In this document: positions 6,111 to 55,080 of the stretch, one piece after another
How positions within the stretch are numbered: the stretch's first letter is position 1
Layout: every line of letters begins with the position of its first letter
NCBI GenBank assembly: GCA_963082975.1
Contig: OY720344.1
Coordinates: 77,550,053-77,614,052 of the forward strand
DNA: 64,000 nucleotides
Reading direction: 5' to 3'
From: Labia minor
Taxonomy: Eukaryota; Arthropoda; Insecta; Dermaptera; Spongiphoridae
Position numbers and translations under genes: made by a program
The notes under the pieces: generated by a model
What the model saw: only the letters and a program-made list of their open reading frames with translations
Databases searched by the model: none
What the model was told of the DNA's origin: nothing

Positions 6111-6364
6111 AGATTTTTTTTTATATTTGCAGTACACTATATACTTTATTTTTATATTAAGGTTAATTAATAGATTAAATTATTTATTTTCGTTTATTTT
6201 TCGAAAAATTCAATATTATCTGTGTTGTCTTTTTGATCATAGCTATCAGTGATGTTAGTAAACAATAAAAAATTAAATAGATTCGTTAAAAATGGGATAC
6301 GTGGGAAAATTGAATTTGTCTTTTCACAGTCCCTGTTAAGTGTTATTGTTATTAAATCGAAGAC
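6111..6364. other. AT-rich stretch, nothing recognised
   Basis: A minus-strand open frame of 62 codons covers part of this stretch but has low-complexity composition and no recognisable motif. Confidence 0.5.
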
Positions 6365-30388: not shown

Positions 30389-30971
30389 AATAATTAATAA
30401 TATTCGAGATGAGTTTAAAGCGAGGTTACAATCGGGAAACGCCTGTTATCATGCAATAAAGGGGCTTATCGCATCAAAATTATTATCAAAGGCGATAAAA
30501 GTTAAAATATATAAAACAATTATTTTACCGGTTGTATTATGTGAATGTGAGGCATGGTCTATGACCTTAGGTGACGAGAGTAGATTTAGAGTATTTGAGA
30601 ATAGGATTTATGGGCCAAAGAAAGATGGGGTCACCGGGAAATGGCGAAGATTGCATAACGAGGAATTGCACGACCTCTATGCATCTCCAGATATAGTTAG
30701 AATTATAAAATCGAGAAGGCTACGGTGGGCAGGACACGTGGCTAGAATGGGAGAAGATAGAATGGCAAAATATATATATTGGTAGGGAGACCGAGTGGGA
30801 AACGTCCATTTGGATGACCAAGGACACGGTGGGTGGATAATGTGGGAAAGGACATGAGAGAGATGGGAGAGGATAGGGACTGGAAGGTTGTGGCTCAGAA
30901 TAGGAATACTTGGAGGGGTGTGGTTGCTGCGGCCAAGAATTTTCGAGTTCCGTAGAGTCACAGAGATAGAT
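30389..30971 (+). mobile_element. GATA-tailed LINE, 5'-truncated insertion (copy c) with 13-bp target duplication
   Basis: AGGTTAATTAGAT flanks the element exactly (30376-30388 and 30972-30984), defining a target-primed insertion. The content is the C-terminal end of the reverse transcriptase protein in several frames: VVLCECEAWSMTLGDESRFR, LHDLYASPDIVRIIKSRRLR, WAGHVARMGEDRMAKY, and after a frame change RTRWVDNVGK-like and AAKNFRVP, then a GAGATAGATAG tail. It is 583 bp, the usual severely 5'-truncated form. Two or three small frameshifts make it non-coding. Close similarity to 46488-47045 suggests both came from the same young source. Confidence 0.9.
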
Positions 30972-30984
30972 AGGTTAATTAGAT

Positions 30985-32674
30985 TCTTTAGGATTAATAT
31001 GATTACACTTTTTTTGGGGAATATTGAGGTAATAACTTCAATTATAACTAATTAAATTTAAAAATTATCTTTTATATAACTACATAAATGCAATAATGTT
31101 GATAAAAATTTTTGAATAGTCACCACACCCTCTGGCGGGCGTTTTGTAAAACATTGGCTAAGATTCAACAAAAGGTGACTCGATTTTCTCAGGCCTACGA
31201 CTTATTGAACACTCCATTAACAATAATACCTCTACTTCAGTGCTAATTTAGGCTGATAGTGAAAAATTTAAATTAAATTAAATTAAATTTGTTAAATAAT
31301 GACACAATTTTAGTGAAAATGTTATTTTTTTAACAAATTTAAAATAATATTATTAATATTATGTTTTTTATTAATTATGTATTTATTCTTTATGCTTAAA
31401 TTATTCATATAAAAAACTAAAAAGCAATTTTATTTATATGCATACATTTTTACACTTTAAATATATATATAGTATAACTTATTACTGTTATTTAAATTGA
31501 AATTCAAAAAGATGAATCTACATTTTTCACAGAACATCTGTTTTAATTTTGCCTCAACTAAATATGATATATAAACACGATATATCAAATCCTAATTTGT
31601 AAAAGATTATTACAATTAGATGTTAGGTGTTTGTGTAGGTATCTCCGTTTAAACAAAAAATTATAACCTATAAACAACTATTAAATAAATGTTTAACCAC
31701 GAGACTAATTTATCATTAAATGTATGCTAAAACTTTTATAATGACTTAAGATTTTCCTATATTAAGTGAAAAAAAAATTCTTATGTCAAGAAAAAATGCA
31801 AAATAACAAAAAATAAATAAAAAAAAATATATAAATTTACTTTAAATTGTCAAGTTTAATTAAGTGATTATATTATGAAATTCTGAAAATATATACAAGA
31901 TATATAAAAAATAAAAAATATCGTGACAATATGTAGGTACATATATTTTAATTTCTAAACAAGAATTACCTAAGCATTTTTCTCTAAAATCACCATCAGT
32001 AAGTTCTAATCACCTAATTTTTCTTCTATTTTAATTAAATACTTTGCTAATATTATCATTAATATAAATATATTATTAAATAGAATATATATTAAATTAT
32101 TAGAAAATCCAACTATCATAGAAAATATAATTACATTATATATGGATTAACTTAAATATATATTATAATATTGTTGTAAATATTGTTTAAAAAATATATT
32201 AGTTAAATATAAATAAAAAAAATAACTAACCAAAATTGTAGGCAATTTAAATAATAATAAAAAAATTGTTAATTCTAAAGATGATATTTTATATTTAGAT
32301 TTAAGTTTTTTTTAAATTTATATATATATATATATATTCCAACATGTCAAATTTTGCACAGGTGACAAATATATAAAATAAATAATAAAGATATTTTTTT
32401 TAAAAAGATTCAATTGTTAATATTAAAAATATTAATTAATAATTGAAAGATAAACATGATCATGAGGTCATTTTTTTCAATTGAAAGAAATTTCTTGAGA
32501 GTAAAGGTATTGTAATCCCGATTAAAACTACCGATATGAGGTTTTTGACACATCTCCACGTTTCAAGTCATTTCAATAACAAAAACGTTTTCCCGTTGAC
32601 GCTTGTGTCAACCTCACACCACCTTTCTATTCCGATTTACTTAACAATTTCATTTTGCTTTTAATCGCTTACTC
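30985..32674. other. AT-rich stretch, nothing recognised
   Basis: About 1.7 kb. A patch at 31115-31260 (ACCACACCCTCTGGCGGGCG and following) has ordinary complexity but matches nothing I recognise. The rest is stop-dense AT DNA. Confidence 0.5.
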
Positions 32675-35600
32675 CATAGGTTCTTAAACTTATGTACTCC
32701 ACGGACCCCCACTTGAAAAAATTTTTTTTGACGGACCCCCATCACAACTTTAGGTACTTTACGTCATTTTATTAATTAATTTCTGGCTTACGATCTCATA
32801 AGGACAAGGATATATGATGAATATTTCTAACAGTGATTGGTGAATAACGATTTTTTTGCATATTGTAGAACACATTTTATTAGAAATTATAATATTGAAG
32901 AAAGAAAATACAAACATTGTCATAGCAACAAATCTCACAAATTATAATGGGTACTTACATTAAATTCATATAAATATTTTATAATTTTTTTCAGAAAATA
33001 TTAAATAAGAAATATTTTAAAAAATAACTGCATCTATCTCATTAAATATAACTTACATATTTAATGAGATGTATGCAGTTGTTTTCTTGAAACAAGAATC
33101 TCAATATCTGGCTTAATATTGGAAACTTTTAATCTAAGATCCGGCTCTACATTTAATTTGTTTCTATATTTAGACTTAATATAAAATAGTACCGAAAAAG
33201 CTTGTTCGCATAAATATGTTGTGCAGAATGGAATCAAGTGTTGAAGTGCTTTATTTGCAAGCGCAGGATAATCTGACCTGAGAAGTAACCAAAAGTTGCT
33301 CAATTCAGTTTTGTTAAATTTTAGTTTATAAGTTGTATCACATGATAATTCCACGAGAATATCTTGTTCAGGTGCAGATAAATGTTTAGCATTTGTAATT
33401 TCCATATTAAATGGATCTCTGATCCAGTTATTGCAAGGATCAGGAGTAGAAAAATACTTCCTGAAGTTGCTTTTCAAAGTAATTAAATGTTCAACAAATA
33501 ATTGACGCGTTTGATTAAGCAATTTTTCACTGGAGCTTTCTATGAAATCATTGAGAGTTGGAAAAGACTCATATACACCGTTCTGGATGCGTTTCGACCA
33601 CAAGTCGATTTTTTTAATCATTGCTTCTATTTTATCTTCAACTTTAAATATATTTACAACAGTACCTTGCAGGCTCAAATTAAGTTCGTTCAATTTTGTA
33701 AAAATATCAGTCAAGTAAGCCACCTTAGCTAACCAGATAAAATCATTGAAACATTCGGTCAGTTCAAAATGCGCATCTATTAAAAACAATCGTATTTCAT
33801 CTCGAAGCTCAAAAAGGCGAATGAGTACTTTCCCGCGGGACAACCAACGTACATCTGTATGTAATAATAAATGTGTATGTTGACTACCCATTTCCTCACA
33901 CAAAATTTTAAAAACTCTGGAATTAAGTGGACGAGCCTTAATGAAATTGACAATTTTAACTACTTCGTCTAATGTTCTTTTCAAATCTGGTGACATATTT
34001 TTGGCTGCTAATGATTCTCTGTGAATGCAGCAATGATTCCAAACAACCTGAGGCGCAACATTTTTAATAAGAGCAATCAATCCAGTTCTTGTACCTGACA
34101 TTGCACGAGCACCATCAGTGCAAATTCCAACACATTTTGGCCACTCTATTTCATTTTCGGTTATAAAATTATTCAAACTGTTAAATATGTCATTAGCTGT
34201 CGTTCGTGAAGGTAGTGAATCACAAAACAATACATCTTCTTGTATTTGATTTTCAAACTCATATCTAATGAAAGCTAACAAATTGGCATTATTAGTGACA
34301 TCAGTACTTTCATCCAATTGTAATGAGTAATAGTGACTTTTGCGCACTCTCGATATTAATTCTTCTTTTATATTACATGACATGTCTTCAATCCTATTCT
34401 TAACCGTATCATTTGATAATGAAATCAAATTTATATCGTTTGCTGCTTTAGTTCCTAACATTATATTTGTAATTACTTTTGTAGCAGGAAGAATTAATTG
34501 CTCTGCTATATTATGCGGCTTTCCTGCTTTAGCAATAAGTAGAGCTACTTCATATGATGCCATTACTGCTTTCTTACTCATACCACCAGATCCCGTCTTT
34601 ACCATCAATTTCTGACTTGAATTAAGTTCTTCTTTTTCCATTTTAAAAAATTCGATAGACTTACTAACATGCTCGCTGTGCTTTGTTTGTAAATGACGTC
34701 TGAGATTAGCAGGTTTCATACTTTCATTGGATAAACTTTCCTGACATAGAACGCAGACTGGTCTTTCCACATCATTGTTGCAAATATAAGTAAATCCAAA
34801 TGATAAATAATCATCCGAATATTTTCTAGTTTTGCGTTTCTTGGTAGAGTTTGCTGTTGATGCCTCATCATCTGATTCTTTCCGTTTCTGTGTTGAACCA
34901 GTTTGTAGCCAACGATCCATTTTATGGAGTAATTTATTAACATTGAACTACAATAATATAAATATAATATAAATATAATATAAATATAACGAATTATTAT
35001 TTACTAGCTATGTTTTAATATGATTTTAAATGAATGTTTTAATATCATTTTAAATGAATGTTTTAAATCATTTTAATAAATGTTTTAAATCATTTTAAAT
35101 AAATGATTTAATATCATTTTAAATGAATATTAATTTATATAATAAATATATTTCGTAATTTGATTCTAAAATATTATTAATTTCGTAATTTGATTCTAAA
35201 ATATTATTAAAATAAATATTTTTTATTCATAAAACTAACTTATACTTACTCTCAAAAACAGCCTTTCTGGGAAATTGCAAAATGTGTTTAGTGTTTTTAT
35301 AAAATAATGATCATGCAAATTACACTAAAAATTAAAAAAAATTATTAGCTATAATAAACTATTATTAGCTATAATTTAATTATAATTAATTAAATTAATA
35401 AAAATAATTTAAAGATACAACTCGTTGAGAAATGAACTTATAATTAACATTAATAAAAATAATTTAAAGATACAACTCGTTGAGAAATGAACTTATAATT
35501 AACATTTGCTTTAAAACTGTTTAAAACCCCAGAGTGGACGCTGACAATTTGGGTTTTTCCGGGTAAGACTGTCCCCTCCCCTGGTTTTCCCCAATAACAA

Positions 35601-35971
35601 AGTGAAAGAAAATTCCCTTATATGCCTCCCCTTCCGAGCCCCTAAGAGGGGTTATTTTAAAGGAACAATCGAAAAATGATTTTAAATGAATGAATGGATG
35701 AAAATTCAAATTTTATATATAGTTTTTTATATATGTTTATTTATTCACAAAAAATTAATTGACATAATTATCAATTTAATAAAATAAAATAGTATTATTA
35801 ATAGTATTAAATTATAGCCGTAATTCTCTAGGAGGATATAGTTAAACAATGAACTTTAAATATTTATATATGTATATATTTTTACGATGATTTTTTTCCG
35901 AGGACCGCGGACCCCCAGTAAAGGCTTCGCGGACCCCCAGGGGTCCGCGGACCACAGTTTAAGAACCACTG
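32675..35971 (-). mobile_element. Buster-type hAT transposon, intact copy 1
   Basis: It is 3297 bp long, bounded by inverted ends CAGTGGTTCTTAAACTG (at 35955-35971, reverse strand) and CATAGGTTCTTAAACTT (at 32675). A perfect 8-bp target duplication GCTTACTC occurs at 32667-32674 and 35972-35979. The central TA of the duplication fits the nnnTAnnn preference described for Buster-type hATs, as opposed to nTnnnnAn of Ac-types. Subterminal GGGTCCG-type repeats lie at both ends, including a palindromic GGTCCGCGG cluster. The 5' non-coding part holds a 55-bp tandem duplication (about 35397-35515) and two copies of a 30-bp unit (35153-35215). One uninterrupted transposase gene fills the rest. Confidence 0.96.
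33061..34920 (-). CDS. hAT transposase (ZBED5-like), copy 1
   Basis: A 619-residue uninterrupted frame encodes the transposase that cuts the element out and inserts it elsewhere with 8-bp duplications; it acts in the nucleus. An N-terminal basic segment (TKKRKTRK, residues 26-33) could serve as nuclear signal. A BED-type zinc finger follows, with ligands C56, C59, H76 and H81. The RNase-H-like catalytic core shows LDESTDVTN (D203) and ICTDGARAM (D269); the C-terminal hAT dimerisation region has LCEQAFSVL, with E572 as the third acidic residue. Length matches animal ZBED5-like/Buster proteins. The start MDRWL is the only in-frame Met before the zinc finger and is shared by copy 2. Compared with copy 2 it has E95, D382, L456 and E465. 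No stop or frameshift, so it is probably functional or only recently silenced. Confidence 0.96.
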   Translation of the reverse strand: MDRWLQTGSTQKRKESDDEASTANSTKKRKTRKYSDDYLSFGFTYICNNDVERPVCVLCQESLSNESMKPANLRRHLQTKHSEHVSKSIEFFKMEKEELNSSQKLMVKTGSGGMSKKAVMASYEVALLIAKAGKPHNIAEQLILPATKVITNIMLGTKAANDINLISLSNDTVKNRIEDMSCNIKEELISRVRKSHYYSLQLDESTDVTNNANLLAFIRYEFENQIQEDVLFCDSLPSRTTANDIFNSLNNFITENEIEWPKCVGICTDGARAMSGTRTGLIALIKNVAPQVVWNHCCIHRESLAAKNMSPDLKRTLDEVVKIVNFIKARPLNSRVFKILCEEMGSQHTHLLLHTDVRWLSRGKVLIRLFELRDEIRLFLIDAHFELTECFNDFIWLAKVAYLTDIFTKLNELNLSLQGTVVNIFKVEDKIEAMIKKIDLWSKRIQNGVYESFPTLNDFIESSSEKLLNQTRQLFVEHLITLKSNFRKYFSTPDPCNNWIRDPFNMEITNAKHLSAPEQDILVELSCDTTYKLKFNKTELSNFWLLLRSDYPALANKALQHLIPFCTTYLCEQAFSVLFYIKSKYRNKLNVEPDLRLKVSNIKPDIEILVSRKQLHTSH

Positions 35972-35979
35972 GCTTACTC

Positions 35980-36543
35980 AATTTTTCTATTTCAATTATT
36001 TGAATACTTTGATACTTTTTATTTTTTATTCTTTTACTTATTTCTATTATATATTCTAAAGAATTTTTAAAACTTTTATTTTGTAAATTCTGCTTTAAAT
36101 TTTATATATAAATAATATACCTCTTAACTACTTTTTGGATATTATCAAGGTCTCATAATCTTGATAACTCTTTAACTAGTATTATATATTTATAAAGAAT
36201 AAAATTTCTCTGAGCATTAAATATAGGAAAATTAAAATTTCATTTAATCTCATAGAATTGACTATTATCGAAATAGTAAAATTTTATTTGTTTTTATAAA
36301 TATTTACAAGATTTAAGCTACATATTTAAATTCAGACACTTTAAAATTGCCTCGTGATATATTTATACTTTATTTAGTATTATATTTCATATTTTTTTTT
36401 AATTCTATGTTGAATTCAAATAGTTTAAGTTAATATTTCGGATATTAATTAATTATTTGCACCAAACATTATTTTTAATGTTGTATTTCAGATTTTAACA
36501 GCGGCAATTTTGAAATATTTGTTGAACAAGTTTTGTATGCGAT
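35980..36543. other. AT-rich stretch, nothing recognised
   Basis: AT-rich DNA between the hAT and the HINE. No supported feature. Confidence 0.6.
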
Positions 36544-37010
36544 TTTTTGAAGTGAAAACTTCCAATTATTTTTATTTATTTATTGTAAATTTTTCAATGT
36601 AACCATGGTAACCATAAATAGACTTTTACCAAAATATTACTAATTAAATTAATTTTGGATAAATTAATTTTGGATTTAACTACAATAAAACCTTCCCTGG
36701 GACGCCCACAACAATCCCTGAAAGTTTCATCGCAATCGGACGGGTAGTTTTTGAGTATTTGACAGACACACACACAGACAGACAGACAGACAGACATATA
36801 TATATATATATATATTCATACACATCGTATTTTTAATATTTTTGTAATAATAATCAGTTTGCTGAAAAAAATAATTATGAATTTTATATATATATATATA
36901 TACGTATATAAATTTCATTTTTCTCGTGAAGCTGGTGCGCATTCCGTCTGCTTTCAAATTTCTTACGCACAAGTTTTCACTTCTGTCGGCCAGTCCCACG
37001 ACTGCCAATT
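36544..37010 (+). mobile_element. HINE (non-autonomous Helentron, DINE-1-like)
   Basis: A T run is followed by subterminal repeat GAAGTGAAAACTT (36549-36561). Near the other end its perfect inverted copy AAGTTTTCACTTC (36971-36983) is followed by a stem-loop (CAGTC 36991-36995 with GACTG 37000-37004). The core holds a tetranucleotide (ACAG)n tract at about 36768-36795 and two TA runs. From 36560 on it is nearly identical to 9695-10139. DINE-1/HINE elements are known for exactly this plan: paired subterminal inverted repeats, a GTCT-type microsatellite core and a 3' stem-loop. Open frames reading through it are microsatellite artefacts. High identity of the two copies suggests recent activity. 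Confidence 0.75.
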
Positions 37011-37660
37011 TTTAAAGGAAACGTTTTATTATGTTAATTCATCTTTTATAAATGATAAAAACGATGTAACAGTCCTTCAATTAATGAATAAAATGAATTT
37101 AAATGAGAAAATATATTCAATCAAGCTGAATGTCAATTAGAAGTGAAAGTTTTGCACCGTTTACAATATTTTTTTTTTTTTTTTGTTTTTTGTTAAAATA
37201 ACAAAAAAATTACTATCTTTTAAAATTATTTCAGCAAAATATCATCGAAATTGACACTCTGACACCTTTTCGATATATAAAAACAATGTCTAAAATGAAA
37301 AATGACCCTGATTTCGAAATGTCATTTGATCAAATCTCGATTGTCTTTGTTTTTAATCGATGCCGATTTGTATAGTCCTGAAACAGAGTTCAACTTATCG
37401 ACTTTTAGTGATCGCGTGTTCAAAACATTCCCTCTTCTTTTTACCTCTTTAATCTCGTCTCTTTCTCTCTCTAATAATGCTTTTGGGTATCATAAAATTT
37501 ATTAACTATGCCAGGTTTCCAAATGAATATTTATTTATTTATTTATTTCCCTCTATCATTTACTTATCTTGTCGAATCACCGGAACTCGTTTATTGAAAT
37601 GATATTGTGCAATAAAAATTAAGTTTAATCGTTATCCAACCTGTATAACTTTAATTAAAT

Positions 37661-37695
<35 letters not shown>

Positions 37696-38519
37696 ATGCA
37701 TACAAATATTTTCAAATGATTTTAAGATTCATATGATTATCATAATTTAACTTATTTCAGGAAGAACGTGTTAAATAACAACTGCGCCAAACGGTGTGGT
37801 TTTGGTTCAACGAGTTTTTATATTTTTTTTTACTAAAGAGACATATATTCGATATATATAAACTAGTTTATTTATTTATGTTCTTTGTTTACATTGAACT
37901 TTGCTCAACTAATGACATATTATTTGATTTTTTCTATAAAATATATTTCTTTATCGTTTCGCTTGATTCATTTATATATATATATATACTGCTTTTTCCG
38001 TTTAATTGTTTATTTACAATGTAAAATTTAATTTTAAAATTTAAACAAGAACGGAACGAAGAGTTTAGACTTGAATTAAAAGGAAGTACATTTTTAAAAA
38101 AAAAAAGTAATACTAACAGCCATTTAATCCTCTTTAACTTGTGTAAATAAATAAAGAAAAAAATATTATATAAAATACTTTCCATCTATCTATTTAGGTT
38201 TATAAATATTTTTTATTTTGTAATTTCGATTGATTTTGCTAAATTTTTATATATAATAGTTGTTTTATATTTATATATTACTGTGAATTTTTTTTTAAAT
38301 CGATAAATTAGGGTAACTAAAGACATGAATGAGGACAATCTGTTTTATTGAGGTGACTTGTACTTTGAACTATTAATCTCATTTTTATATTGTTATCGTC
38401 ATTAAGGGAAAAATTAAAAAAAAAATTTAAATAAAAATTATCGATTTAATATTTTTCTTGATAGATTAATAAAGAATAAAATAATTATAAAAACATTTAA
38501 ATCAAACCTTTTTATAGTC
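37011..38519. other. AT-rich stretch, nothing recognised
   Basis: AT-rich DNA. A patch at 37290-37500 has ordinary complexity and a 67-codon plus-strand frame without recognisable motif. TA runs at 37665-37695. Confidence 0.5.
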
Positions 38520-38598
38520 ATTATATACTATAGTGTATAATATGTATACTATTGTATATATATACACTATAATGTATACTATAGTGTAATATATTACT
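38520..38598. repeat. TATA-rich palindrome cluster
   Basis: Repeated self-complementary words (ACTATAGTGTA, GTATACTAT, TACACTATA) occur on both strands between 38525 and 38592, so the segment can fold on itself in several registers. It directly abuts the hAT-like edge at 38599. Confidence 0.6.
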
Positions 38599-38690
38599 CA
38601 GTGGCGGATTAAGTTGATTGGGGGCCCCGGGCGGTAAAATTGAAATGGGCCCTCTCTTATTTACAATTATAATTGAAAGACAAATTTTGT
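38599..38690 (+). mobile_element. Edge of a second hAT-type element (truncated)
   Basis: CAGTGGCGGATTAAG followed by GGGGGCCCCGGGCGG is a typical hAT terminus (CAGTGGCGGAT- class). The preceding 8 bases, ATATTACT (38591-38598), would be the target duplication, but I found no matching inverted end downstream, so the other end has been lost or is too diverged. Where the element stops is unknown. Confidence 0.45.
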
Positions 38691-38990
38691 TTATATTATA
38701 ATTTAGGCTGTTTTATACTTACATATATAGTACTTATGTAAAAAATACATAATTTTTACTGTGGTCGCTGACACCCAAAATAGATTATTTTTTCTTGAGT
38801 TAGTCGGGGTTCAAACACGACCGAATAAAGATCTGTATATCAAGAATAACTTGTTTTATTTAAACTCCGATATATACATTAACGTTCCACCTTGATATAA
38901 AAATATCTTATTTTTCTATGTAAGTATTTATAAATAGAAATTTGTATTAAAACTTTAATACATAACTTAATTATATATTTATGTATATTG

Positions 38991-39028
<38 letters not shown>

Positions 39029-40540
39029 ATAATATTATTTAATTAAAATAAGTAAATTATTTTTATTTTTTTCAAAATTTACCATACTTATTATTATACA
39101 TAAAGTAGCGCCTCCGATCAAGAAGATCAAAACAACAGTTGGGAGGACCCGTTCTACTGATCATAGAACACCTATATTAGGCAGCAAAAAGCGCTGACCT
39201 TTCGTAGGATGTACAAAAGCCAGAGAAGAGATATTATTATATTTATGCATTTTAGATTAACATGTAATATATAAATATTATACAATTTTGACTCTTGGAT
39301 AAATATAATAGGAATAGAATAAAAATATAGTTTATTAATTAAAAAGTTTTTTTATATTCTTAATAACTAAAACTATTACTTTTTGTTATAGTATAAATTT
39401 AATAAAGTCATTATATGGGAGATCTCAATTTTATTTTCGTATTCTTTCAAAGCACACTTCCGTTAATAATTACTAATATCCGCTTGATTTTTTTTAATTA
39501 ATACTTAGTTTTCTAGAATACAAGATAATCAAAAAAGAGTTGCACTTTATTATACTTTAAAAAATAAAAATAAAATATTTTTTACTTATTCTCAAATAAT
39601 AAAATTCTAATTTCTAAACTGGTTTTAAAATTATCATTTTTACTAAACTTATACTGATATTTGGATTATTATCTTTATTATTATATTATATTCGTTCACA
39701 TTCAAATTAGAATTCTCGATGAAAAAATATTTATTCAAATAAATTTAAAATAAAAAAAGTTTTTTATAATATATTAAATAAATTTTTTTGTTAATTAAAA
39801 TGAAAATTTTATGATTATTTTAAATTTAATTATTTCTTATATGAAATTATATTATATTTTAAATTCTCCATTGGGAAGAAAGAAATATTTAAAAGAAAAC
39901 TTATTCTATATTTTATTATTTACATAATTAAGCGTATTTAAATTAGCCAAAAACCTGAATTTTCTTGAAAATATATCTTATCTAATAATTTTGATAAGTA
40001 AATATATGTTTTTATTTAATTATATCTCTTATAAATATTTAAACTGTAATATTTTATTTTAATAAAATTATTTGGAATGATATTGTTTTTTTTTCTTTTG
40101 GAAATACGTGTATATATACCTAGTAATAAAAATCAGTGGAGTATTAAAAGATTTCCTAATTATGTTTTAACATATGTTATTAATTTATTGTATTACAATT
40201 TTTTATATATATTTTGAAAAAAAAATATAAACATGTTTCATACTAAAAAATAATTTATTCATTAAATGAATGGTCCAAAAATCAAGAAATAATAAAAAGT
40301 AACTGTTAGTTAATTCTTTCAAAATTATTATCAAAATTTATAATTTACTTTTAAGTTTTGATATAATTATGATATCTTTGATTTTTGTTAATTTGTAATA
40401 TATATATAAAAAACAAGAGAATGAATTTCAACAAAAATTTTGATTTTCTAAAATTTTCATTATATTTAAGATTATGTCATTTTTATAAAAAATATTTCAT
40501 TTTATGCTCTCTAAACTAATTTATCATCTAATTTCTATTT
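38691..40540. other. AT-rich stretch with one complex patch
   Basis: Mostly AT-rich. The patch at 39100-39230 (GCGCCTCCGATC to CGTAGGATGTACAAAAGCC) and the one at 38755-38840 (GTCGGGGTTCAAACACGACC) have ordinary complexity and may be interior remnants of the hAT-like element starting at 38599. No coding sequence recognised. Confidence 0.4.
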
Positions 40541-40544
40541 CTAT

Positions 40545-40700
40545 TTTGAAATTATTAGCCACCACATTCCTCCAACTGCTTCTATCTTACCCACCTACAT
40601 CCAATTTTGATTTTCTCCTAATTCCTTCAAATCTTTATTTGTATTATTCGTCCATCACGTCCTTGATCTACTAACAGATTGTTTCCAAGTTTCTCTCATA
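40545..40700 (-). mobile_element. Highly degraded LINE 3' end
   Basis: The plus strand shows the antisense order of the family tail: TTAGCCACCACATTCC, then CCAATTTTGATTTTCTCC, then AATTCCTTCAAATC, then GTCCATCACGTCCTTGATC, then GATTGTTTCCAAG. This parallels the better copies at 48690 and 59015. No reading frame survives. Confidence 0.5.
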
Positions 40701-41010
40701 TTTTTACTTTTCTTAACATTCATTTATTTAAATAATATATAAATTATCTTTATTAATTGTATTTTTTTCTACTTTGTTTCAGGTAAGCGAAATAATTTCA
40801 CAATACTATCAAATTCATTTAATGTATATAAAGTATGAAACTTCAACTATGTAAGTACTACAATAATACACATATAACCTAAAATTTTTAGGAAATTTAT
40901 CTAGTTTTATTATTATTATTATTATTATTATTAATATTATTTCTTTTCTAAGACAATAAGATATTTTGAAAATAATAATATATTTTTTGGTTTTTATTAT
41001 TATCAGAAAG

Positions 41011-41640
41011 TAAGGTGGTTGTGTCTAACTTAATTGTCCCTAGGTAGCTTGCATCCGTGCCTTCCACTTCAACTCCCCACTTCCCTTCATTATTACTTTT
41101 TTTTCTCTCTCCCAGCTCAACTTCTGACACGTTTTGTCGTGCTGTGGTGTCGTTAAGTGGTGTTAATTTGTCGAAGGTCCTTCCGATGAGATTGGAACGG
41201 TGATAAGCTCTTCGGGCCCTTCCTAATTGGATCTGATGGTGCCTCATGCAGGCAGGTAGTAAGTTCAAGTGGCATGGTACGGCCGGTCCATGGGTACCGA
41301 CCATCTTACGCAAGTTCTTCGCTTCAGGCCGATGTTTTTCTTTCAATTGCCATGTCAATGAACTCGTCCGCATTTCCAAACTTCCCTTGTCCACTCGACT
41401 TCCTTGATAAGGGTGACATCCCTTCGGATTTACCACCGTATCTAATCACTTCTACACTCTTTCGATTGATTTTTATATTCTTTGTAGAACCAAGAAGAAT
41501 AGAGAGAAAACTTGTCAAATGGTTTTTAATCGGTCATGCGCTTCAAATTTTGAACTCGGCGTGTTTTGCTTCCAACCAAGACAATACATCCCAATGCCCA
41601 ATTAACCAAAACAATTGCCCTCGAATTGTCAACCAACAAC
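41011..41640. promoter_or_regulatory. Longest balanced-composition island; regulatory element or unrecognised exon
   Basis: About 600 bp of high-complexity sequence. It is open on both strands for unusually long: 162 codons minus (40948-41436), 176 codons plus (41274-41804), and a 53-codon ATG frame at 41246-41407 reading SKFKWHGTAGPWVPTILRK and then GRCFSFNCHVNELVRISK, which looks protein-like. None matches a family I know. Self-complementary blocks near 41277-41302 (CGGCCG and GGTACC sites) argue for DNA-level constraint. The site CAGGCAGGTAGTAAGT at about 41248 could act as a splice donor. I cannot decide between coding and regulatory. Confidence 0.35.
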
Positions 41641-42743
41641 ACTATGAAATAACAACGTTTCATTTTAAAATATATATTTACTTTACTAATCAAATCTGGA
41701 TATTCAAACCCCTTTACCTCTTTATTGTCATTACAAAATTTTTATTTCCTAATCTAATCAATTTTGACGTATTTCAGACGTATTTGATACGATTTTTTAT
41801 ATAACACATATATTTGTATAACAAAAGTAATAAATTCAACTCAAAAATTCTAATAATAAACTACAATATAAATATACATACTAATAATAATAATAATATA
41901 AATTGATTTGTCTCTAGTCAATCTGATGTTTGCTTTACTTCAGGTAAATTCTTTTACAAAAATTGGTAGAGAATAATTACTACGCTCTACTATTTTGCGT
42001 TCAGAATATTGTCCAGTTAGAAATTTAAATTAAAACTTTGTTCCAAAATTTATTCAAAATATCTATAAAATACTAGTGTTCTAGAATATATTTTTTTTTT
42101 TGATAAATTGCTTTTTGTACCATTTTTCTATCAAATAGAGGGGTACTATTGATTTACTAGTGATTTTCGAAAAAAACATCAATTAAATCGAAGTTAATTT
42201 TATTATTTTAAACTATTAATTATTATAATTAAACGACTACGCAATCCTAAACTCCTTTTAAACGGCTTCATGGATCTTAATGGATCGGGTATCCTTAGAA
42301 CCGTCATGACCCAAGGTTAAGGTATAAGGTTGAAAATTTCAAAAAAGTTGATCTGTTTCATAGTTATGGGCAAAAAACCGACTCATATAAACAACGCTCT
42401 ATATACCGCCTCTGGTGGGTCCGTTAAGAAGTTGACACTCAATATAATATTAATAATTCTAGAAATGTCCATACAAAAAATGTTTATAATATTTAAATTT
42501 TTATTTTAAGTTCTAATATTCTAAAATATTAAAAGTAAAATTAAATTAAATTGAATATTACTCCTAATTGATTAATATTTTCTAAATCAAAGTAAGTAAT
42601 ATTTTTTATATTTTGAAAAATGTTGCAATTTGCAAAGTTGAGTGAAAACGAAGATCCAAATGAGAGAAAAAATATACTGATGGAATTAAAATAAATTAAA
42701 ACCTTTCGCATACAGACTTTCAACAAATTACTATGTATTAAAT
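41641..42743. other. AT-rich stretch with unclassified repeat-like segment
   Basis: AT-rich DNA. The part 42100-42430 has ordinary complexity (TAGAGGGGTACTATTGATTT; GGATCGGGTATCCTTAGAACC; CCGCCTCTGGTGGGTCCG) and reads like the interior of an old transposon, but no ends or coding motifs were found. Confidence 0.4.
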
Positions 42744-43698
42744 CAGTGGTTCTTAAACTGTGGTCCGCGGACCCCTGGGGGTCCGCGAAGCCTTTACTGG
42801 GGGTCCGCGGTCCTCGGAAAAAAATCATCGTAAAAATATATACATATATAAATATTTAAAGTTCATTGTTTAACTATATCCTCCTAGAGAATTACGGCTA
42901 TAATTTAATACTATTAATAATACTATTTTATTTTATTAAATTGATAATTATGTCAATTAATTTTTTGTGAATAAATAAACATATATAAAAAACTATATAT
43001 AAAATTTGAATTTTCATCCATTCATTCATTTAAAATCATTTTTCGATTGTTCCTTTAAAATAACCCCTCTTAGGGGCTCGGAAGGGGAGGCATATAAGGG
43101 AATTTTCTTTCACTTTGTTATTGGGGAAAACCAGGGGAGGGGACAGTCTTACCCGGAAAAACCCAAATTGTCAGCGTCCACTGTGGGGTTTTAAACAGTT
43201 TTAAAGCAAATGTTAATTATAAGTTCATTTCTCAACGAGTTGTATCTTTAAATTATTTTTATTAATGTTAATTATAAGTTCATTTCTCAACGAGTTGTAT
43301 CTTTAAATTATTTTTATTAATTTAATTAATTATAATTAAATTATAGCTAATAATAGTTTATTATAGCTAATAATTTTTTTTAATTTTTAGTGTAATTTGC
43401 ATGATCATTATTTTATAAAAACACTAAACACATTTTGCAATTTCCCAGAAAGGCTGTTTTTGAGAGTAAGTATAAGTTAGTTTTATGAATAAAAAATATT
43501 TATTTTAATAATATTTTAGAATCAAATTACGAAATTAATAATATTTTAGAATCAAATTACGAAATTAATAATATTTTAGAATCAAATTACGAAATATATT
43601 TATTATATAAATTAATATTCATTTAAAATGATATTAAATCATTTATTTAAAATGATTTAAAACATTTATTAAAATGATTTAAAACATTCATTTAAAAT

Positions 43699-44035
43699 AA
43701 GGTGACCATTTTTTAGAAAGCAAAAACCAGTACATTTTTTTTTGTTGACTGGTGGGGTGGGGGCGAGAGATAGGGAGATATTACTTAGATATAATTTATA
43801 AACAAAAATATTATAAACAAAAATTATTTTTATGCAAAATATTTATTAAAAGTTGAATGTGGTCGTAAAAGTATCATCAAATTTTGGAAATAAAACAAAA
43901 TGAAGTAAATAAGTTAAAATTTAAACGTTTATAGAAATTAATGAAAATTTTGTACTGGTTTTTGTTTAAAACTATCTAGGACCAATGCCAAAAAACCAGT
44001 ACTGTACTGGTAAAACCAGTACGAATGGTCACCTT
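43699..44035. mobile_element. 337-bp MITE nested in hAT copy 2
   Basis: Inverted ends AAGGTGACCATT (43699) and AATGGTCACCTT (ending 44035) are flanked by a 9-bp direct duplication ATTTAAAAT (43690-43698 and 44036-44044). Copy 1 of the hAT has the empty site, which proves insertion. The word ACCAGTAC recurs near both ends and forms a palindrome CCAGTACTGTACTGG at about 43996-44010. The interior has a G-rich tract (about 43750-43780) and no coding sequence. The 9-bp duplication would fit Mutator-like elements; an 8-bp hAT-type reading with asymmetric ends is also possible. Confidence 0.9.
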
Positions 44036-44170
44036 ATTTAAAATGATATTAAAACATTCATTTCAAATCATATTAAAACATAGCTAGTAAATAATAATTC
44101 GTTATATTTATATTATATTTATATTATATTTATATTATTGTAGTTCAATGTTAATAAATTACTCCATAAA

Positions 44171-46030
44171 ATGGATCGTTGGCTACAAACTGGTTCAACA
44201 CAGAAACGGAAAGAATCAGATGATGAGGCATCAACAGCAAACTCTACCAAGAAACGCAAAACTAGAAAATATTCGGATGATTATTTATCATTTGGATTTA
44301 CTTATATTTGCAACAATGATGTGGAAAGACCAGTCTGCGTTCTATGTCAGGAAAGTTTATCCAATGAAAGTATGAAACCTGCTAATCTCAGACGTCATTT
44401 ACAAACAAAGCACAGCGAGCATGTTAGTAAGTCTATCGAATTTTTTAAAATGAAAAAAGAAGAACTTAATTCAAGTCAGAAATTGATGGTAAAGACGGGA
44501 TCTGGTGGTATGAGTAAGAAAGCAGTAATGGCATCATATGAAGTAGCTCTACTTATTGCTAAAGCAGGAAAGCCGCATAATATAGCAGAGCAATTAATTC
44601 TTCCTGCTACAAAAGTAATTACAAATATAATGTTAGGAACTAAAGCAGCAAACGATATAAATTTGATTTCATTATCAAATGATACGGTTAAGAATAGGAT
44701 TGAAGACATGTCATGTAATATAAAAGAAGAATTAATATCGAGAGTGCGCAAAAGTCACTATTACTCATTACAATTGGATGAAAGTACTGATGTCACTAAT
44801 AATGCCAATTTGTTAGCTTTCATTAGATATGAGTTTGAAAATCAAATACAAGAAGATGTATTGTTTTGTGATTCACTACCTTCACGAACGACAGCTAATG
44901 ACATATTTAACAGTTTGAATAATTTTATAACCGAAAATGAAATAGAGTGGCCAAAATGTGTTGGAATTTGCACTGATGGTGCTCGTGCAATGTCAGGTAC
45001 AAGAACTGGATTGATTGCTCTTATTAAAAATGTTGCGCCTCAGGTTGTTTGGAATCATTGCTGCATTCACAGAGAATCATTAGCAGCCAAAAATATGTCA
45101 CCAGATTTGAAAAGAACATTAGACGAAGTAGTTAAAATTGTCAATTTCATTAAGGCTCGTCCACTTAATTCCAGAGTTTTTAAAATTTTGTGTGAGGAAA
45201 TGGGTAGTCAACATACACATTTATTATTACATACAGATGTACGTTGGTTGTCCCGCGGGAAAGTACTCATTCGCCTTTTTGAGCTTCGAGATGAAATACG
45301 ATTGTTTTTAATAAATGCGCATTTTGAACTGACCGAATGTTTCAATGATTTTATCTGGTTAGCTAAGGTGGCTTACTTGACTGATATTTTTACAAAATTG
45401 AACGAACTTAATTTGAGCCTGCAAGGTACTGTTGTAAATATATTTAAAGTTGAAGATAAAATAGAAGCAATGATTAAAAAAATCGACTTGTGGTCGAAAC
45501 GCATCCAGAACGGTGTATATGAGTCTTTTCCAACTCCCAATGATTTCATAGAAAGCTCCAGTCAAAAATTGCTTAATCAAACGCGTCAATTATTTGTTGA
45601 ACATTTAATTACTTTGAAAAGCAACTTCAGGAAGTATTTTTCTACTCCTGATCCTTGCAATAACTGGATCAGAGATCCATTTAATATGGAAATTACAAAT
45701 GCTAAACATTTATCTGCACCTGAACAAGATATTCTCGTGGAATTATCATGTGATACAACTTATAAACTAAAATTTAACAAAACTGAATTGAGCAACTTTT
45801 GGTTACTTCTCAGGTCAGATTATCCTGCGCTTGCAAATAAAGCACTTCAACACTTGATTCCATTCTGCACAACATATTTATGCGAACAAGCTTTTTCGGT
45901 ACTATTTTATATTAAGTCTAAATATAGAAACAAATTAAATGTAGAGCCGGATCTTAGATTAAAAGTTTCCAATATTAAGCCAGATATTGAGATTCTTGTT
46001 TCAAGAAAACAACTGCATACATCTCATTAA
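44171..46030 (+). CDS. hAT transposase (ZBED5-like), copy 2
   Basis: A 619-residue intact frame, same protein as 33061-34920 apart from four substitutions: E95K, D382N, L456P, E465Q (copy 1 to copy 2). All key residues are kept: BED finger C56/C59/H76/H81, acidic D203 and D269, and CEQAF with E572. None of the changes touches a catalytic or metal-binding position; L456P lies in a likely helical insertion region and could affect folding. Its promoter region is separated from the 5' element end by the nested MITE (43699-44035), about 135 bp before the start codon, which may alter expression. It sits in the opposite orientation to copy 1, 9.3 kb away. Confidence 0.96.
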   Translation: MDRWLQTGSTQKRKESDDEASTANSTKKRKTRKYSDDYLSFGFTYICNNDVERPVCVLCQESLSNESMKPANLRRHLQTKHSEHVSKSIEFFKMKKEELNSSQKLMVKTGSGGMSKKAVMASYEVALLIAKAGKPHNIAEQLILPATKVITNIMLGTKAANDINLISLSNDTVKNRIEDMSCNIKEELISRVRKSHYYSLQLDESTDVTNNANLLAFIRYEFENQIQEDVLFCDSLPSRTTANDIFNSLNNFITENEIEWPKCVGICTDGARAMSGTRTGLIALIKNVAPQVVWNHCCIHRESLAAKNMSPDLKRTLDEVVKIVNFIKARPLNSRVFKILCEEMGSQHTHLLLHTDVRWLSRGKVLIRLFELRDEIRLFLINAHFELTECFNDFIWLAKVAYLTDIFTKLNELNLSLQGTVVNIFKVEDKIEAMIKKIDLWSKRIQNGVYESFPTPNDFIESSSQKLLNQTRQLFVEHLITLKSNFRKYFSTPDPCNNWIRDPFNMEITNAKHLSAPEQDILVELSCDTTYKLKFNKTELSNFWLLLRSDYPALANKALQHLIPFCTTYLCEQAFSVLFYIKSKYRNKLNVEPDLRLKVSNIKPDIEILVSRKQLHTSH

Positions 46031-46487
46031 ATATGTAAGTTATATTTAATGAGATAGATGCAGTTATTTTTTAAAATATTTCTTATTTAATATTTTCTGA
46101 AAAAAATTATAAAATATTTATATGAATTTAATGTAAGTACCCATTATAATTTGTGAGATTTGTTGCTATGACAATGTTTGTATTTTCTTTCTTCAATATT
46201 ATAATTTCTAATAAAATGTGTTCTACAATATGCAAAAAAATCGTTATTCACCAATCACTGTTAGAAATATTCATCATATATCCTTGTCCTTATGAGATCG
46301 TAAGCCAGAAATTAATTAATAAAATGACGTAAAGTACCTAAAGTTGTGATGGGGGTCCGTCAAAAAAAATTTTTTCAAGTGGGGGTCCGTGGAGTACATA
46401 AGTTTAAGAACCTATGTATTAAATGATTTTAAATTTCATTTTTAATTCACTTATAGAATTAATTATATTCTGAATCTTTATCTATTT

Positions 46488-47045
46488 TAAATATAATAAG
46501 AGATTCGGCAATTGCAACTATAGATAGTGTAGAAAAATTAATTGAAGCAGGAAAAGAGGTGGGACTAGAAATTAATAATGCTAAGACAAAGTATTTAGTA
46601 ACAGAGAGGAATAGTATTAACACATTAAATCTTAAAGAGTAGATTTAGAGTATTTGAGAATAGGATTCTGCGAAGCATTTATGGGCCAAAGAAGATGAGG
46701 TCACCGGGGAATGGCGAAGATTGCATAACGAGGAATTGCATGACCTCTATGCATCTCCAGATATAGTTAGAATTTTAAAATCGAGAAAGCTACGGTGGGC
46801 AGGACACGTGGCTAGAATGGGAGAAGATAGAATGGCAAAATATATATTGGTAGGGAGACCGAGTGGGAAACGTCCTCTTGGAAGACCAAGGACACGGTGG
46901 GTGGATAATGTGGGAAAGGATGTGAGAGAGATGGGAGAGGATAGGGACTTTAAGGTTGTGGCTCAGAATAGGAATACTTGGAGAGGTGTGGTTGCTGCGG
47001 CCAAGAACTTTCGAGTTCCGTAGAGTCTCAGAGATAGAGATAGAT
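46488..47045 (+). mobile_element. GATA-tailed LINE, truncated insertion (copy d) with internal deletion
   Basis: It starts in the segment just after the YADD motif (DSATIDSVEKLIEAGKE-like, then INNAKTKYLVTERNSINT) and jumps at about 46635 straight to SRFRVFENRIL, lacking roughly 300 bp that copies b and c retain. It ends with LHDLYASPDIVRILKSRKLR, WAGHVARMGEDRMAKYILVG, PSGKRPLGRPRTRWVDNVGK and AAKNFRVP (best-preserved C-terminus; open frame 46721-47023), then a GAGATAGAGATAGAT tail. A 14-bp target duplication with one mismatch (ATCTTTATCTATTT 46474-46487; ATCTTTATTTATTT 47046-47059) frames it. Confidence 0.87.
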
Positions 47046-50520: not shown

Positions 50521-51215
50521 CTAAGAAACAACATCTATCCATCTTTCAATATATAATCAAAAGAATCCTCCTCATCCCCTCTACTCTCCTAAACAAGACG
50601 ATTATTAAAATTAATTCTTTTTTTCCTTCGCTCATTTTGCAATTAAGAATAAAAATCCCTTTTGTCTGATGGTGATTATTAATGTAAAACCTTCGGAGAA
50701 AATGATTTATGAATATTTTTCTTAAAAGAATCAATCAAATTGTAAAATTTTATCTGAATTCAGGGAAAGAGAAAAAAAATAATTTTTTTTTCATATAATG
50801 ATAAAAATAATCTTTTCAGTCATAGCGTTATGAAATTGGATGATTGATTCTTTCATTTCATTTAAATTAATTTAAGGGATGAAAATTTGAATTACTAATT
50901 TTTCTTTTTAAATTTAGAATCACATTTAATATGTAAAATTCATTTCTGAATTTCTGCAGAGTCACTTACATTTAGGTTGAGTTAATACACGCAAACTGAT
51001 TTTTTTTGTATTTGTAATATCTTCCTTAATTTTTTTTAACCCTAAATGAAATTTAAATATATTACTAAAATAAGTTTACTTTTTATTAAATATATAGGAT
51101 CAGATTATGTAAAAGGGACTCATGCTTACCCATAATTTTTTTATTATAAATGCTATTTTTTATTAATTACAATTTCATCAGTGATGTCATACCTAAACTA
51201 AATAAAAAATAAGCT
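50521..51215. other. AT-rich stretch, nothing recognised
   Basis: No supported feature. Confidence 0.5.
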
Positions 51216-51804
51216 GGAGTGTCTCCACTCGACTATCTCGCAATTTGAATTGGATTAAATAACATAATATATTATATTTAAATTAAATTTAATTAATTAT
51301 AAATTATAAATAATAAATATTAAACCAGCGCATATTTGGTTTTTTATTGATGGCACCATGGCACGTGTTGGCGCGTGAGATTTGCAGTGTTAAAAAATTA
51401 ATTCTGGTACTTTCAGCGATTCAATCAAGCTGAAATTCCATATATAGCAGTTTTATACAATTATTAATCATGTGAAAAATTATCAAACATATATCTTTAT
51501 TTTTACGGTCACTTTAGAGGAAAAAAAATCAAAACGTTGTAGGTAATGACCCTCTTCCGGTTGAGCTACATTTCTCAAAAGTTGATAGTAAACTATGAAT
51601 TTTGAATAATGCTCATGTACCAAATTGCATCATTCTAGCTCAAACCGTTTTTGCGTAATCTTGCCTACATACATACACACACACAGACATTTTTCTCAAC
51701 CTTAGTGAAAATGTTTCAGGAACCTTCAAAACGTATAAAAACATCAAAATCTCAACATCGAAAATTTTCGTGATCGCAATACTATCTCTGGCGAGATAGT
51801 AAAA
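51216..51804 (-). repeat. Family X interspersed repeat, copy 5, best-preserved full copy
   Basis: Read on the plus strand it opens with GGAGTGTCTCCACTCGACTATCTCGC, here cited only as landmarks: the hairpin GAGTG/CACTC, then ACTATCTCGC. It passes an AT-rich part, the CACGTGTTGGCGCGTGA block, the CTGAAAGTACC-type block in antisense and a (CA)n tract at about 51675-51690. It closes with the hairpin TACTATCTCTGGCGAGATAGTA. The inverted 10-mer ACTATCTCGC / GCGAGATAGT thus sits at both ends. It is 589 bp and has no reading frame. Flanks show no obvious target duplication, which would suit a rolling-circle (Helitron-class) element, but the canonical CTRRT end is absent. Confidence 0.85.
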
Positions 51805-52106
51805 AGTTACATATATCACAGAACAATTACTCACCACTTACTTTTCTACACTTATATTTTATTTCTAAAATTAATTATCAATTTCGTTTATATATTATTT
51901 TATAATTATCCAGCTAGGGGTCATTCATTTCTTACTATTTACTTTCCCTTCTCTTAAGCCAGTTATGGCGAAACCCAGTAGCGTCTGTTCTCCAGGTTAG
52001 GGGCGGCTACGAACAGCGTCTGTACTCCAGGTTAGGGGCGGCTGAGAATCAAACCGAAGAAGGCAACGGGAAACCACTTCGGTATACCATCCCCAGGAAA
52101 TTCACT

Positions 52107-53264
52107 ATGACGAGAAACAAAATACAAATGGCCCCCAGTCCCGGGCAGCCCTTAAATGGGCAAGGGGTGCGAAGAATCTCCCGGCTCAGAATAGTGAAAA
52201 CCAGACTGCGAGTGTGTACATGGAATGTCAGAAGTCTCTTCATGGCCGGAAAATTAAACAACGCTATCAAAGAAATGAGAAGACTTAAAGTTAAGTTCAT
52301 GGGAATCAGCGAACTCAGATGGCCTGGTGTCGGTGTTTGTTCTCAGGAAGGAGGAACACTCTATTACTCAGGAAGTGAGAGTGGAGATAGGTTTCATCGA
52401 AACGGTGTCGGAATTCTAGTTGACTCGGAGTTCACGAGGTACGTTAAGAACTTTGTGCCCATATCGGATAGAGTGATGCTGCTACAGATTCATGGACAGC
52501 CATTTGACATAAATATCTTACAAGTCTACGCACCTACATCTGATAGTAAATACGATGAGGAAGTGGAAAAATTCTACAACACTTTAGAAAACACTCTAAA
52601 CTCTCTCAAGAAGAATACCATAAACTTGATACTTGGAGACTTTAATGCTAAAATCGGTCAGGGCAGACGGGGGGATTTGGTCGGCGATTTCGGCTTAGGT
52701 GAGTGTAATGAGAGAGGAGACCGGCTCTATGATTTCTGCCAAACTACAGAGATGGTAGTAACTAATACGCTATTTAAACTTCCAAAGCGACGTCTTTACA
52801 CATGGAAATCACCCAGAGACTCTATTGACAACCAAGAACCAAGTAGGAACCAAATTGATTACATTCTGATAAACAGACGTTTCCGAAATTGTGTTAAAAG
52901 AGTCACAACATACCCTGGTGCAGACATAGGCTCAGATCACAACCCTTTGGTTGCGGACATGGGCCTAGCGTTGAAGTCTGTAAAAAGAAAAAACTGCAAC
53001 GTTAATATTATTGATACATCAAGATTACAATTTGAGGATGTTAGGAATGCTGTTATTGATGATCTCAATGGCAAATTAATGAGGATATCTATTGACGATC
53101 TTGACGATATAAATACTCAGTGGGCACTGCTGAAAAATGCTTTGGTGGAGACTGGTTCGCTTCACTTGAGGAGAACACGTACAATGAAGAGGAGGTCGTG
53201 GATGACGGACGAGATTTTGGATTTGATGGAAGAAAGGAGACTTCTCAAAAATAACAGAATATAA
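52107..53264 (+). CDS. RTE-like endonuclease half (craniofacial-development-protein-2-like)
   Basis: 385 codons encoding the apurinic-like endonuclease that nicks target DNA for target-primed reverse transcription. Motifs in order: VCTWNVRSL (N40), GISELRWPG (E69), YAPTSD (residues 141-146), LILGDFNAKIG (D178, N180), QIDYILINRR (residues 249-258), and GSDHNPLVAD with the catalytic D277/H278. All are intact. Proteins annotated in animal genomes as craniofacial development protein 2-like are of this type. The frame ends at 53264 in RRLLKNNRI; the natural continuation (TEYKKM, then QFKIRKGIK) lies in another frame, so the stop is caused by a small indel near 53255-53262. In an undamaged element this and the next frame would be one protein of about 990 residues. 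Confidence 0.9.
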   Translation: MTRNKIQMAPSPGQPLNGQGVRRISRLRIVKTRLRVCTWNVRSLFMAGKLNNAIKEMRRLKVKFMGISELRWPGVGVCSQEGGTLYYSGSESGDRFHRNGVGILVDSEFTRYVKNFVPISDRVMLLQIHGQPFDINILQVYAPTSDSKYDEEVEKFYNTLENTLNSLKKNTINLILGDFNAKIGQGRRGDLVGDFGLGECNERGDRLYDFCQTTEMVVTNTLFKLPKRRLYTWKSPRDSIDNQEPSRNQIDYILINRRFRNCVKRVTTYPGADIGSDHNPLVADMGLALKSVKRKNCNVNIIDTSRLQFEDVRNAVIDDLNGKLMRISIDDLDDINTQWALLKNALVETGSLHLRRTRTMKRRSWMTDEILDLMEERRLLKNNRI

Positions 53265-53268
53265 AAAG

Positions 53269-55080
53269 ATGCAATTCAAAATAAGGAAAGGGATTAAATT
53301 AGCAAAACAAATTTGGATGACAGAAAGGTGTGAAGAAATAGAAGAATTAGTCTCAAAACATGACATGTTTAATATACATGTAAAGGTAAAGGAAATAACT
53401 GGACAATTCAGGAGTCGACCACCAATGTCAATACTAAATGAAGCCAAAAAACTAGTAACGGACGAAGCTGAACTCATGAAAGCCTGGCAATTGTACGCAG
53501 CAAAACTTTTTGAAGATTCCAGAGAGGAAGTTGAAATTGATGATTGCGATCCTGAAGGACCAAAAATAATAAAATCAGAGCTAATTCACGCTATTTCAAT
53601 TGCTAAGAACAAGAAAGCGCCGGGACCAGATGGAATCCCAATGGAATTAATCAAATTCATCAATGAAGACAATATAGACCTGGTATTGAAAATATTTAAC
53701 AATATCTATAACTGCGGTGTGCTTCCAGAGGAATGGCTGAAATCAACATTTGTTACTATCCCAAAGAAACAATACCCTAAGAATTGCAGTGACTATCGCC
53801 TCATCAGTCTTATGAGCCATATGTTAAAGACCTTTCTTCGAATAATACACGCCCGCATCCGATTAAAATGTGAGTTAGACTTAGATGACTCGCAGTTTGG
53901 ATTCAGAAACGCCTTCGGTACAAGAGAAGCATTATTTGGCTTCAATGTTTTGCTTCAAAAATGTCGTGACCAACACAAGGATGTATTTGCATGTTTTGTT
54001 GACTACGAAAAAGCCTTTGACAGAATAAAACACACTAGACTGATTGAACTTCTGTGCGATGCTGGAGTGGACGAAAAAGATATCAGGATTATAAAAAATC
54101 TGTACTGGAGGCAATATGCCGTAATCAGAGTAGGAAAATCCACAACACCGGGAATTGAGATCCAGAGAGGAGTCCGTCAAGGATGCATTCTCTCTCCCCT
54201 TTTATTTAATCTCTATGCTGACAGAATTTTTAAAGAGGCCTTGGAAGAACTGGATATGGGGGTGAAAGTAAATGGCGTACCAATTAGTACAATTAAATAT
54301 GCCGACGACACTGTGATCCTGTCTGAAAACATTGAAGACCTTCAACTACTTCTGAATAAAATTTCTCAAATTGGAATTAAAGCGGGCTTAAACATCAATA
54401 TAGCCAAAACAAAATTTATGGTCTTTAGCCGCCAGCCACATGGAAACGCCTCCCTCCACCTCGATAACAAACAAGTTGAACGAGTAAGATCTTTTAAATA
54501 TCTTGGTTGTATCATAAATGACCAGCTAGACCCGGATATCGAAATTAAGTCCAGAATTGAGGCTGCGAGGTCCACCTTCAATAAAATGAGATCCTTCTTC
54601 TGTGATGACAACCTAAATCTTAAATTACGACAGAGAATGGCCAAATGCTATGTTTGGTCCATTCTCTTATATGGTGTGGAAGCATGGACACTCAAGGTCA
54701 GTACGATGAATCGCCTGGAGGCTTTTGAGATGTGGATCCTCAGGCGAATGCTGCGAATTCCCTGGGTTGAGAGAGTTACCAACAGGGATGTCTTGAGGAG
54801 AGCAAACACACAGCGAGAACTCCTCAACACTGTCAAATGCCGGAAAATCTCTTACCTCGGCCACATCTTGAGAGGTAATAAATATCAACTCCTTCAATTA
54901 ATCCTCAAAGGGAAAATTGAGGGTCGACGTGGACCCGGGAGAAGACGTCAATCCTGGTTAGGGAATATCAGGGAATGGACCGGCATAAGGAGCGTGGGAG
55001 AGCTGTTCCGCACGGCGGAAAATAGAGACGTTTTCGCCAGAGTGATCGCCGACGTCAGGGAGACCGGACAAGGCACTTGA
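53269..55080 (+). CDS. RTE-like reverse transcriptase half
   Basis: 603 codons in a different frame from the preceding endonuclease. The first Met (MQFKIRK) is probably not a real start but the point where the frame resumes after the frameshift. RT motifs: KKAPGPDGIPMELI (residues 115-128), FVDYEKAFD (motif A, D245), GVRQGCILSPLLFN (motif B, 301-314), YADD (motif C, 344-347), SFKYLGCIIND (thumb). The C-terminal region has LLYGVEAWTL, YLGHILRGN and GRRGPGRRRQSW, ending about 10 bases before the GAA tail. All catalytic residues are present. Without the upstream frameshift this would be a complete element; as is, it could make RT only by ribosomal reinitiation or frameshifting, which I consider unlikely. 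Confidence 0.9.
   Translation: MQFKIRKGIKLAKQIWMTERCEEIEELVSKHDMFNIHVKVKEITGQFRSRPPMSILNEAKKLVTDEAELMKAWQLYAAKLFEDSREEVEIDDCDPEGPKIIKSELIHAISIAKNKKAPGPDGIPMELIKFINEDNIDLVLKIFNNIYNCGVLPEEWLKSTFVTIPKKQYPKNCSDYRLISLMSHMLKTFLRIIHARIRLKCELDLDDSQFGFRNAFGTREALFGFNVLLQKCRDQHKDVFACFVDYEKAFDRIKHTRLIELLCDAGVDEKDIRIIKNLYWRQYAVIRVGKSTTPGIEIQRGVRQGCILSPLLFNLYADRIFKEALEELDMGVKVNGVPISTIKYADDTVILSENIEDLQLLLNKISQIGIKAGLNINIAKTKFMVFSRQPHGNASLHLDNKQVERVRSFKYLGCIINDQLDPDIEIKSRIEAARSTFNKMRSFFCDDNLNLKLRQRMAKCYVWSILLYGVEAWTLKVSTMNRLEAFEMWILRRMLRIPWVERVTNRDVLRRANTQRELLNTVKCRKISYLGHILRGNKYQLLQLILKGKIEGRRGPGRRRQSWLGNIREWTGIRSVGELFRTAENRDVFARVIADVRETGQGT

Follow-up and report, generated by a model that had tools for sequence, protein, structure and literature searches.

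The window analyzed here (64,000 nucleotides; G000:C1:77550053-77614052, from an assembly of 604 Mb in 71 contigs) holds two closely similar transposons only 6.8 kb apart, which raises the question of how such a pair arose, and whether one copy gave rise to the other. We put a probability of roughly 0.87 on the reading that the two, called A and B below, are members of a hAT-type, Buster-like cut-and-paste family that has very recently burst to about 1,500 copies. An earlier note had described two complete hAT transposons in opposite orientation with perfect 8-bp target duplications, all of which was confirmed:

32675..35971, minus strand (that of the transposase): copy A, a complete hAT-type transposon of 3,297 bp, recovered genome-wide as the same locus (L001)
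42744..46416, plus strand (that of the transposase): copy B, a complete hAT-type transposon of 3,673 bp, delimited by its ends and duplications
32667-32674 (left) and 35972-35979 (right): target duplication of A, GCTTACTC, a perfect 8 bp
42736-42743 (left) and 46417-46424 (right): target duplication of B, TATTAAAT, a perfect 8 bp
32675..32690, plus strand: left terminal inverted repeat of A, CATAGGTTCTTAAACT
35956..35971, minus strand: right terminal inverted repeat of A, CAGTGGTTCTTAAACT as read on that strand
32702, 32732, 35908 and 35930: subterminal GGGGGTCCG repeats of A
42768..42807 (two) and 46351-46389 (two): subterminal GGGGGTCCG repeats of B

All 8 exact occurrences of GGGGGTCCG in the window fall within the ends of A and B. 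The idea that the pair is an assembly duplication was ruled out, as the flanks and the target duplications of the two copies differ.

The near-identity stated in the earlier note stands for the sequence and fails for the length. Only 6 substitutions separate A from B in a direct alignment (7 in a multiple alignment), and the common size of 3.3 kb given for both is wrong for B, owing to two length differences, of 346 bp and of one 30-bp tandem unit, both of them extra in B:

43699..44035: 337-bp element nested in B and bounded by 12-bp inverted ends (AAGGTGACCATT), present in B's two sister copies and without counterpart in A
43690..43698 and 44036-44044: 9-bp duplication ATTTAAAAT flanking the nested element
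43505..43595 in B (three units) and 35150-35210 in A (two units): 30-bp tandem array, the third unit of B being an extra copy at 43566-43595

The larger difference is thus the 337-bp element plus its 9-bp duplication, and considering that A has a single, unbroken ATTTAAAAT, it was B that gained an insertion rather than A that suffered a deletion. As it sits within a very young host element, the nested element is recently mobile too.

Both copies carry an open transposase reading frame, of the length and with the number of differing residues that had been claimed:

33061..34920, minus strand: transposase of A, 619 amino acids, with weak Pfam matches
44171..46030, plus strand: transposase of B, 619 amino acids, four residues unlike A

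The differences (E95K, D382N, L456P and E465Q) miss the putative DDE residues D203, D269 and E572, candidates placed by motif, so that, as the earlier note stated, probably none is catalytic; a copy elsewhere (L039) has a change at the putative D269. For the transposase of A, Pfam gave weak matches to a hAT dimerisation domain at residues 536-590 (Dimer_Tnp_hAT; E 8.5e-4, 19.5 bits, below the curated cut-off of 21.4) and a BED zinc finger at 55-82 (zf-BED; E 0.0074, also below its cut-off). NCBIfam yielded weak unrelated matches alone, and no solved structure matched at E 1. Near the last transposase codons of B, and overlapping them, lies a 29-bp inverted repeat with a 7-bp loop, 90% complementary (46006-46070 of the window).

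To count the family, exact matches to the 41-mers of the element ends were collected across the 604-Mb assembly, giving 1,541 left and 1,551 right ends, while the reversed patterns, used as a control, gave 0 matches. At about 3.3 kb per copy, the family arithmetically occupies some 5 Mb, or about 0.8% of the assembly. Most copies examined are complete. Among the first 100 left ends, paired with the first 100 right ends of a single contig (C1, 0.25-41 Mb), 92 were matched with a right end; 84 of these pairs span 3,200-3,450 bp, 3 are shorter (1,782, 2,742 and 2,995 bp) and 5 longer, and for the other 8 no exact match to the right end lies within 12 kb. Twenty left-end loci from the first 8 Mb of one contig were fetched regardless of their reading frame; both ends were found in 19, perfect duplications in 17 of those 19, and a full reading frame in 18 of the 20. 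The earlier note had intact copies as uncommon in decayed hAT families; in this family they are the rule. A protein search returned 3,644 first-look candidates, and the 71 scored, a sample chosen for similarity, were all full length, without stops and at a rounded identity of 100%. Extrapolated from one contig, the number of open transposases genome-wide is likely well over 1,000.

In 46 unique copies, a mix of similarity-chosen and unselected loci, the 8-bp duplication is perfect in 44 and has one mismatch in the other 2; TA occupies positions 4-5 in 45, with one copy lacking it, in line with the nnnTAnnn preference that had been proposed. In addition, T is found two bases outside one side in 36/46 and A two bases outside the other in 34/46, biases that form an extended palindrome around the target.

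These targets, together with the ends and the subterminal repeats, support placing the element among Buster-like hATs, as the earlier note had it. In the criteria given in PMC3517528, hAT elements have 8-bp duplications, short inverted ends and a length under 4 kb; here we find 8-bp duplications, 16-bp imperfect inverted ends, and both A and B within that length. Buster1, as presented in PMC4298943, has ends CAGGGCTTCTTAAAC(T), of which 14/16 positions are like CAGTGGTTCTTAAACT, and both elements carry short G-rich subterminal repeats, TGGGTCGCG in Buster1 and GGGGGTCCG here. Its reported hosts are a planarian, a triatomine bug, a butterfly and a twisted-wing parasite, with 17, 3 and 3 autonomous copies listed in Table 1 of that paper against 17-270 non-autonomous ones at 1.45-9.94% divergence. 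Unlike Buster1, the present family is dominated by full-length copies, about 0.07% from their majority sequence. TcBuster of the red flour beetle (PMC3499496), likened by target only, also makes 8-bp nnnTAnnn duplications, and so does Mar, a Buster-group MITE of Drosophila willistoni (PMC3517528), which, unlike this family, is described as comprising short non-autonomous copies and relic transposases.

Short derivatives are also present. Among the 92 paired ends there is one copy, of 1,782 bp, that has truly undergone internal deletion; it is flanked by a duplication of its own, CTCTAGGG. Allowing up to 3 mismatches raised the left-end matches from 1,541 to 2,277, and a degenerate left end gave 2,101, with 20 of the 100 listed beginning CAGAGG. 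The extra mismatched ends had been considered decayed copies, which we set aside once the degenerate pattern revealed this distinct CAGAGG end. The single CAGAGG locus that was fetched holds a non-autonomous element of 463 bp, flanked by the duplication ACTTATGC, whose ends are 95-97% similar to those of the autonomous element. This relative apparently numbers in the hundreds, the full-length form being the commoner among the listed matches. A different kind of length variant is seen in L041, where a 426-bp insertion repeats in tandem the 5' region of the transposon itself.

The claim of very recent transposition is strongly supported, by the number of exact ends and by the mean pairwise difference of 0.136% among the 19 copies with both ends. 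These copies hold 45 changes from the majority sequence, or about 2.4 per copy (0.07%), and with A and B added (21 sequences) 36 of the 41 variable sites are singletons, a star-like pattern. If the butterfly mutation rate of 2.9e-9 per site per generation (as stated in PMC4271535) is assumed for this host, the burst would date to near 240,000 generations ago. Purifying selection as the force keeping the reading frames open was rejected for the 19-copy sample: the 16 variable sites in the frame (10 replacement, 4 silent, 2 stop) divide as neutral decay predicts (11.4, 3.8 and 0.7). In other words, the open frames look to reflect youth, not conservation.

What preceded the burst is a separate matter. 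A recent horizontal arrival from another species is a contender, which we place a little below even odds. The shape and youth of the burst speak for it, as does the patchy distribution of Buster elements, from which horizontal transfer has been inferred (PMC4298943). The related short non-autonomous family, on the other hand, with ends so similar to those of the full-length form, suggests that this lineage, or one closely related, was already present, and the viral and prokaryote collections searched yielded no relative. Somewhat more doubtful, and offered tentatively, is the proposal that the transposon is still invading, with polymorphic insertions, more than 1,000 copies able to make transposase, and the family not yet silenced by the host. 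If true, a single assembly would have caught the autonomous-dominated first phase, before short derivatives take over, and if copies are polymorphic, the start of host silencing could be followed.

It is very unlikely that the family is old and its copies are alike through gene conversion. That account would suit copies so numerous and alike, and the few variants that are common to 5 of the 21 sequences, but it sits badly with variation made up mostly of singletons, with nested insertions and tandem-unit changes that persist, and with stop codons that were not swept out; moreover, the duplications, which lie outside the element, are equally fresh (44/46 perfect).

Within the burst, the relationships among copies can partly be read from shared variants. 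A stop codon at S190, initially noticed in L033, is present in 3 copies (C1:2.47, C6:30.17 and C6:32.22 Mb), all of which share a second change at base 1293 of the reading frame and have three different target duplications (CTATATAC, TCCTAAGC and CTTTACAG). The stop alone would not prove common descent, since one given change is expected to recur independently about 0.36 times across this many copies; the stop together with the second variant, at three loci with three different duplications, implies mobilization in trans. The simplest reading of these variants is that this sublineage would be a dead copy moved by the enzyme of other copies, though it could also stem in part from conversion between copies. 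Elements that already held a nested insertion have evidently moved again, judging from the 641-bp insert that L037 and L006 share at one place, with differing duplications (ATTTAGAC and TATTATTG), and from the 337-bp element of B in its sister copies. Copies have also inserted into one another: a 6,658-bp end pair (C1:13796705-13803362) is a copy holding a second copy, at C1:13799894-13803216 with duplication CTCTAGGA. Sequence similar to the 641-bp repeat is found at many places in the window, such as 51207-51800, 5519-6112 and 61221-61767.

The same approach bears on the suggestion of local hopping, which is not supported between A and B and finds support within B's own sublineage. That A and B are one local hop, with either giving rise to the other, is highly improbable. 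They are separated by just 6.8 kb, and among 100 ends there are somewhat more pairs closer than 20 kb than expected (11 vs 4.7, P 0.006; 5 vs 2.4, P 0.09, for less than 10 kb; 14 vs 11.4, P 0.23, for less than 50 kb). The spacing is unremarkable by itself, however, because 1,541 copies spread uniformly would give about 53 neighbors this close genome-wide, and the closest relatives of the two copies lie elsewhere. Over the whole element, A shows 0 substitutions from two copies on contig C6 (L002 and L003) and 6-7 from B, and its E95 variant, absent from B, is found in 8 copies on C1 (2), C2 (3), C4 (1) and C6 (2). The combination of B's variants at codons 456 and 465 marks exactly 3 copies, none of them A: B itself and two copies at C1:80.09 and C1:80.20 Mb, 2.5-2.6 Mb off. 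Both of these sisters have D382N and the nested 337-bp element, in which they share one base unlike B's, and their own target duplications (CTTTATGT and CCCTAGAA). On these variants, neither A nor B is the parent of the other. Under uniform scatter, the chance that both sisters fall within 2.61 Mb of B would be about 7e-5, a figure set post hoc. Given that all three copies of B's sublineage lie within 2.6 Mb while A's is spread over four contigs, linked hopping would fit B's sublineage only, and A's argues against it as a rule.

It is no less improbable that the inverted, almost identical copies have recombined and inverted the segment between them, as the earlier note had thought possible and as remains so in principle, for in this assembly the duplications to the left and right of each copy still match each other. 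A single exchange would have mixed the two; the arrangement seen is as expected if no exchange, or an even number, occurred.

Taken as a burst, the history of the family may have run as follows. Binding of the transposase, presumably to both the 16-bp inverted ends and the subterminal GGGGGTCCG repeats, would be followed by excision of the element, as in the hAT superfamily; insertion at palindromic sites around TA would yield the 8-bp duplications, a structure that is seen here, with the action of the protein extrapolated from that superfamily. The net gain of copies would probably come about as donor sites are repaired using the sister chromatid, as is general for such transposons. Copies beget copies with no single master element, since elements that held nested inserts went on to move, copies landed inside other copies, and the stop-codon sublineage moved, the latter apparently with enzyme borrowed from other copies, to go by its shared variants and different duplications. 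Some daughters would stay near the parent's chromosome region, as in B's sublineage, and others scatter, as in A's; A and B would have reached their 6.8-kb spacing independently.

What is remarkable about this Buster-like hAT family is the size, youth and completeness of its burst. Bursts of DNA transposons are mostly known afterwards, from decayed copies and short derivatives, whereas here the amplification is directly readable. With near-identical copies numbering about 1,500, and an open transposase in most of those sampled, direct tests become possible of parentage, of the distance at which daughters land, of how often other copies mobilize broken ones and of the timing at which short derivatives appear. 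Among the titles and abstract beginnings that we screened, no description of this burst was found, and one may be in print. A parallel is Harbinger-Snek of sea kraits, likewise reported as an explosive DNA transposon expansion in which many copies are intact (269 of them fully so in one species; PMC8437027); it belongs to another superfamily and has few near-identical copies left, whereas near-identical copies are the rule here.

Other repeats are also present around the A/B pair. At 51918-55080 of the window lies a non-LTR retrotransposon, with frames for an endonuclease (PF03372) and a reverse transcriptase (PF00078). Two direct repeats, 95% alike and about 16 kb apart (30613-30970 and 46683-47038), flank the pair; they overlap reverse-transcriptase-like frames and look like fragments of another retroelement.
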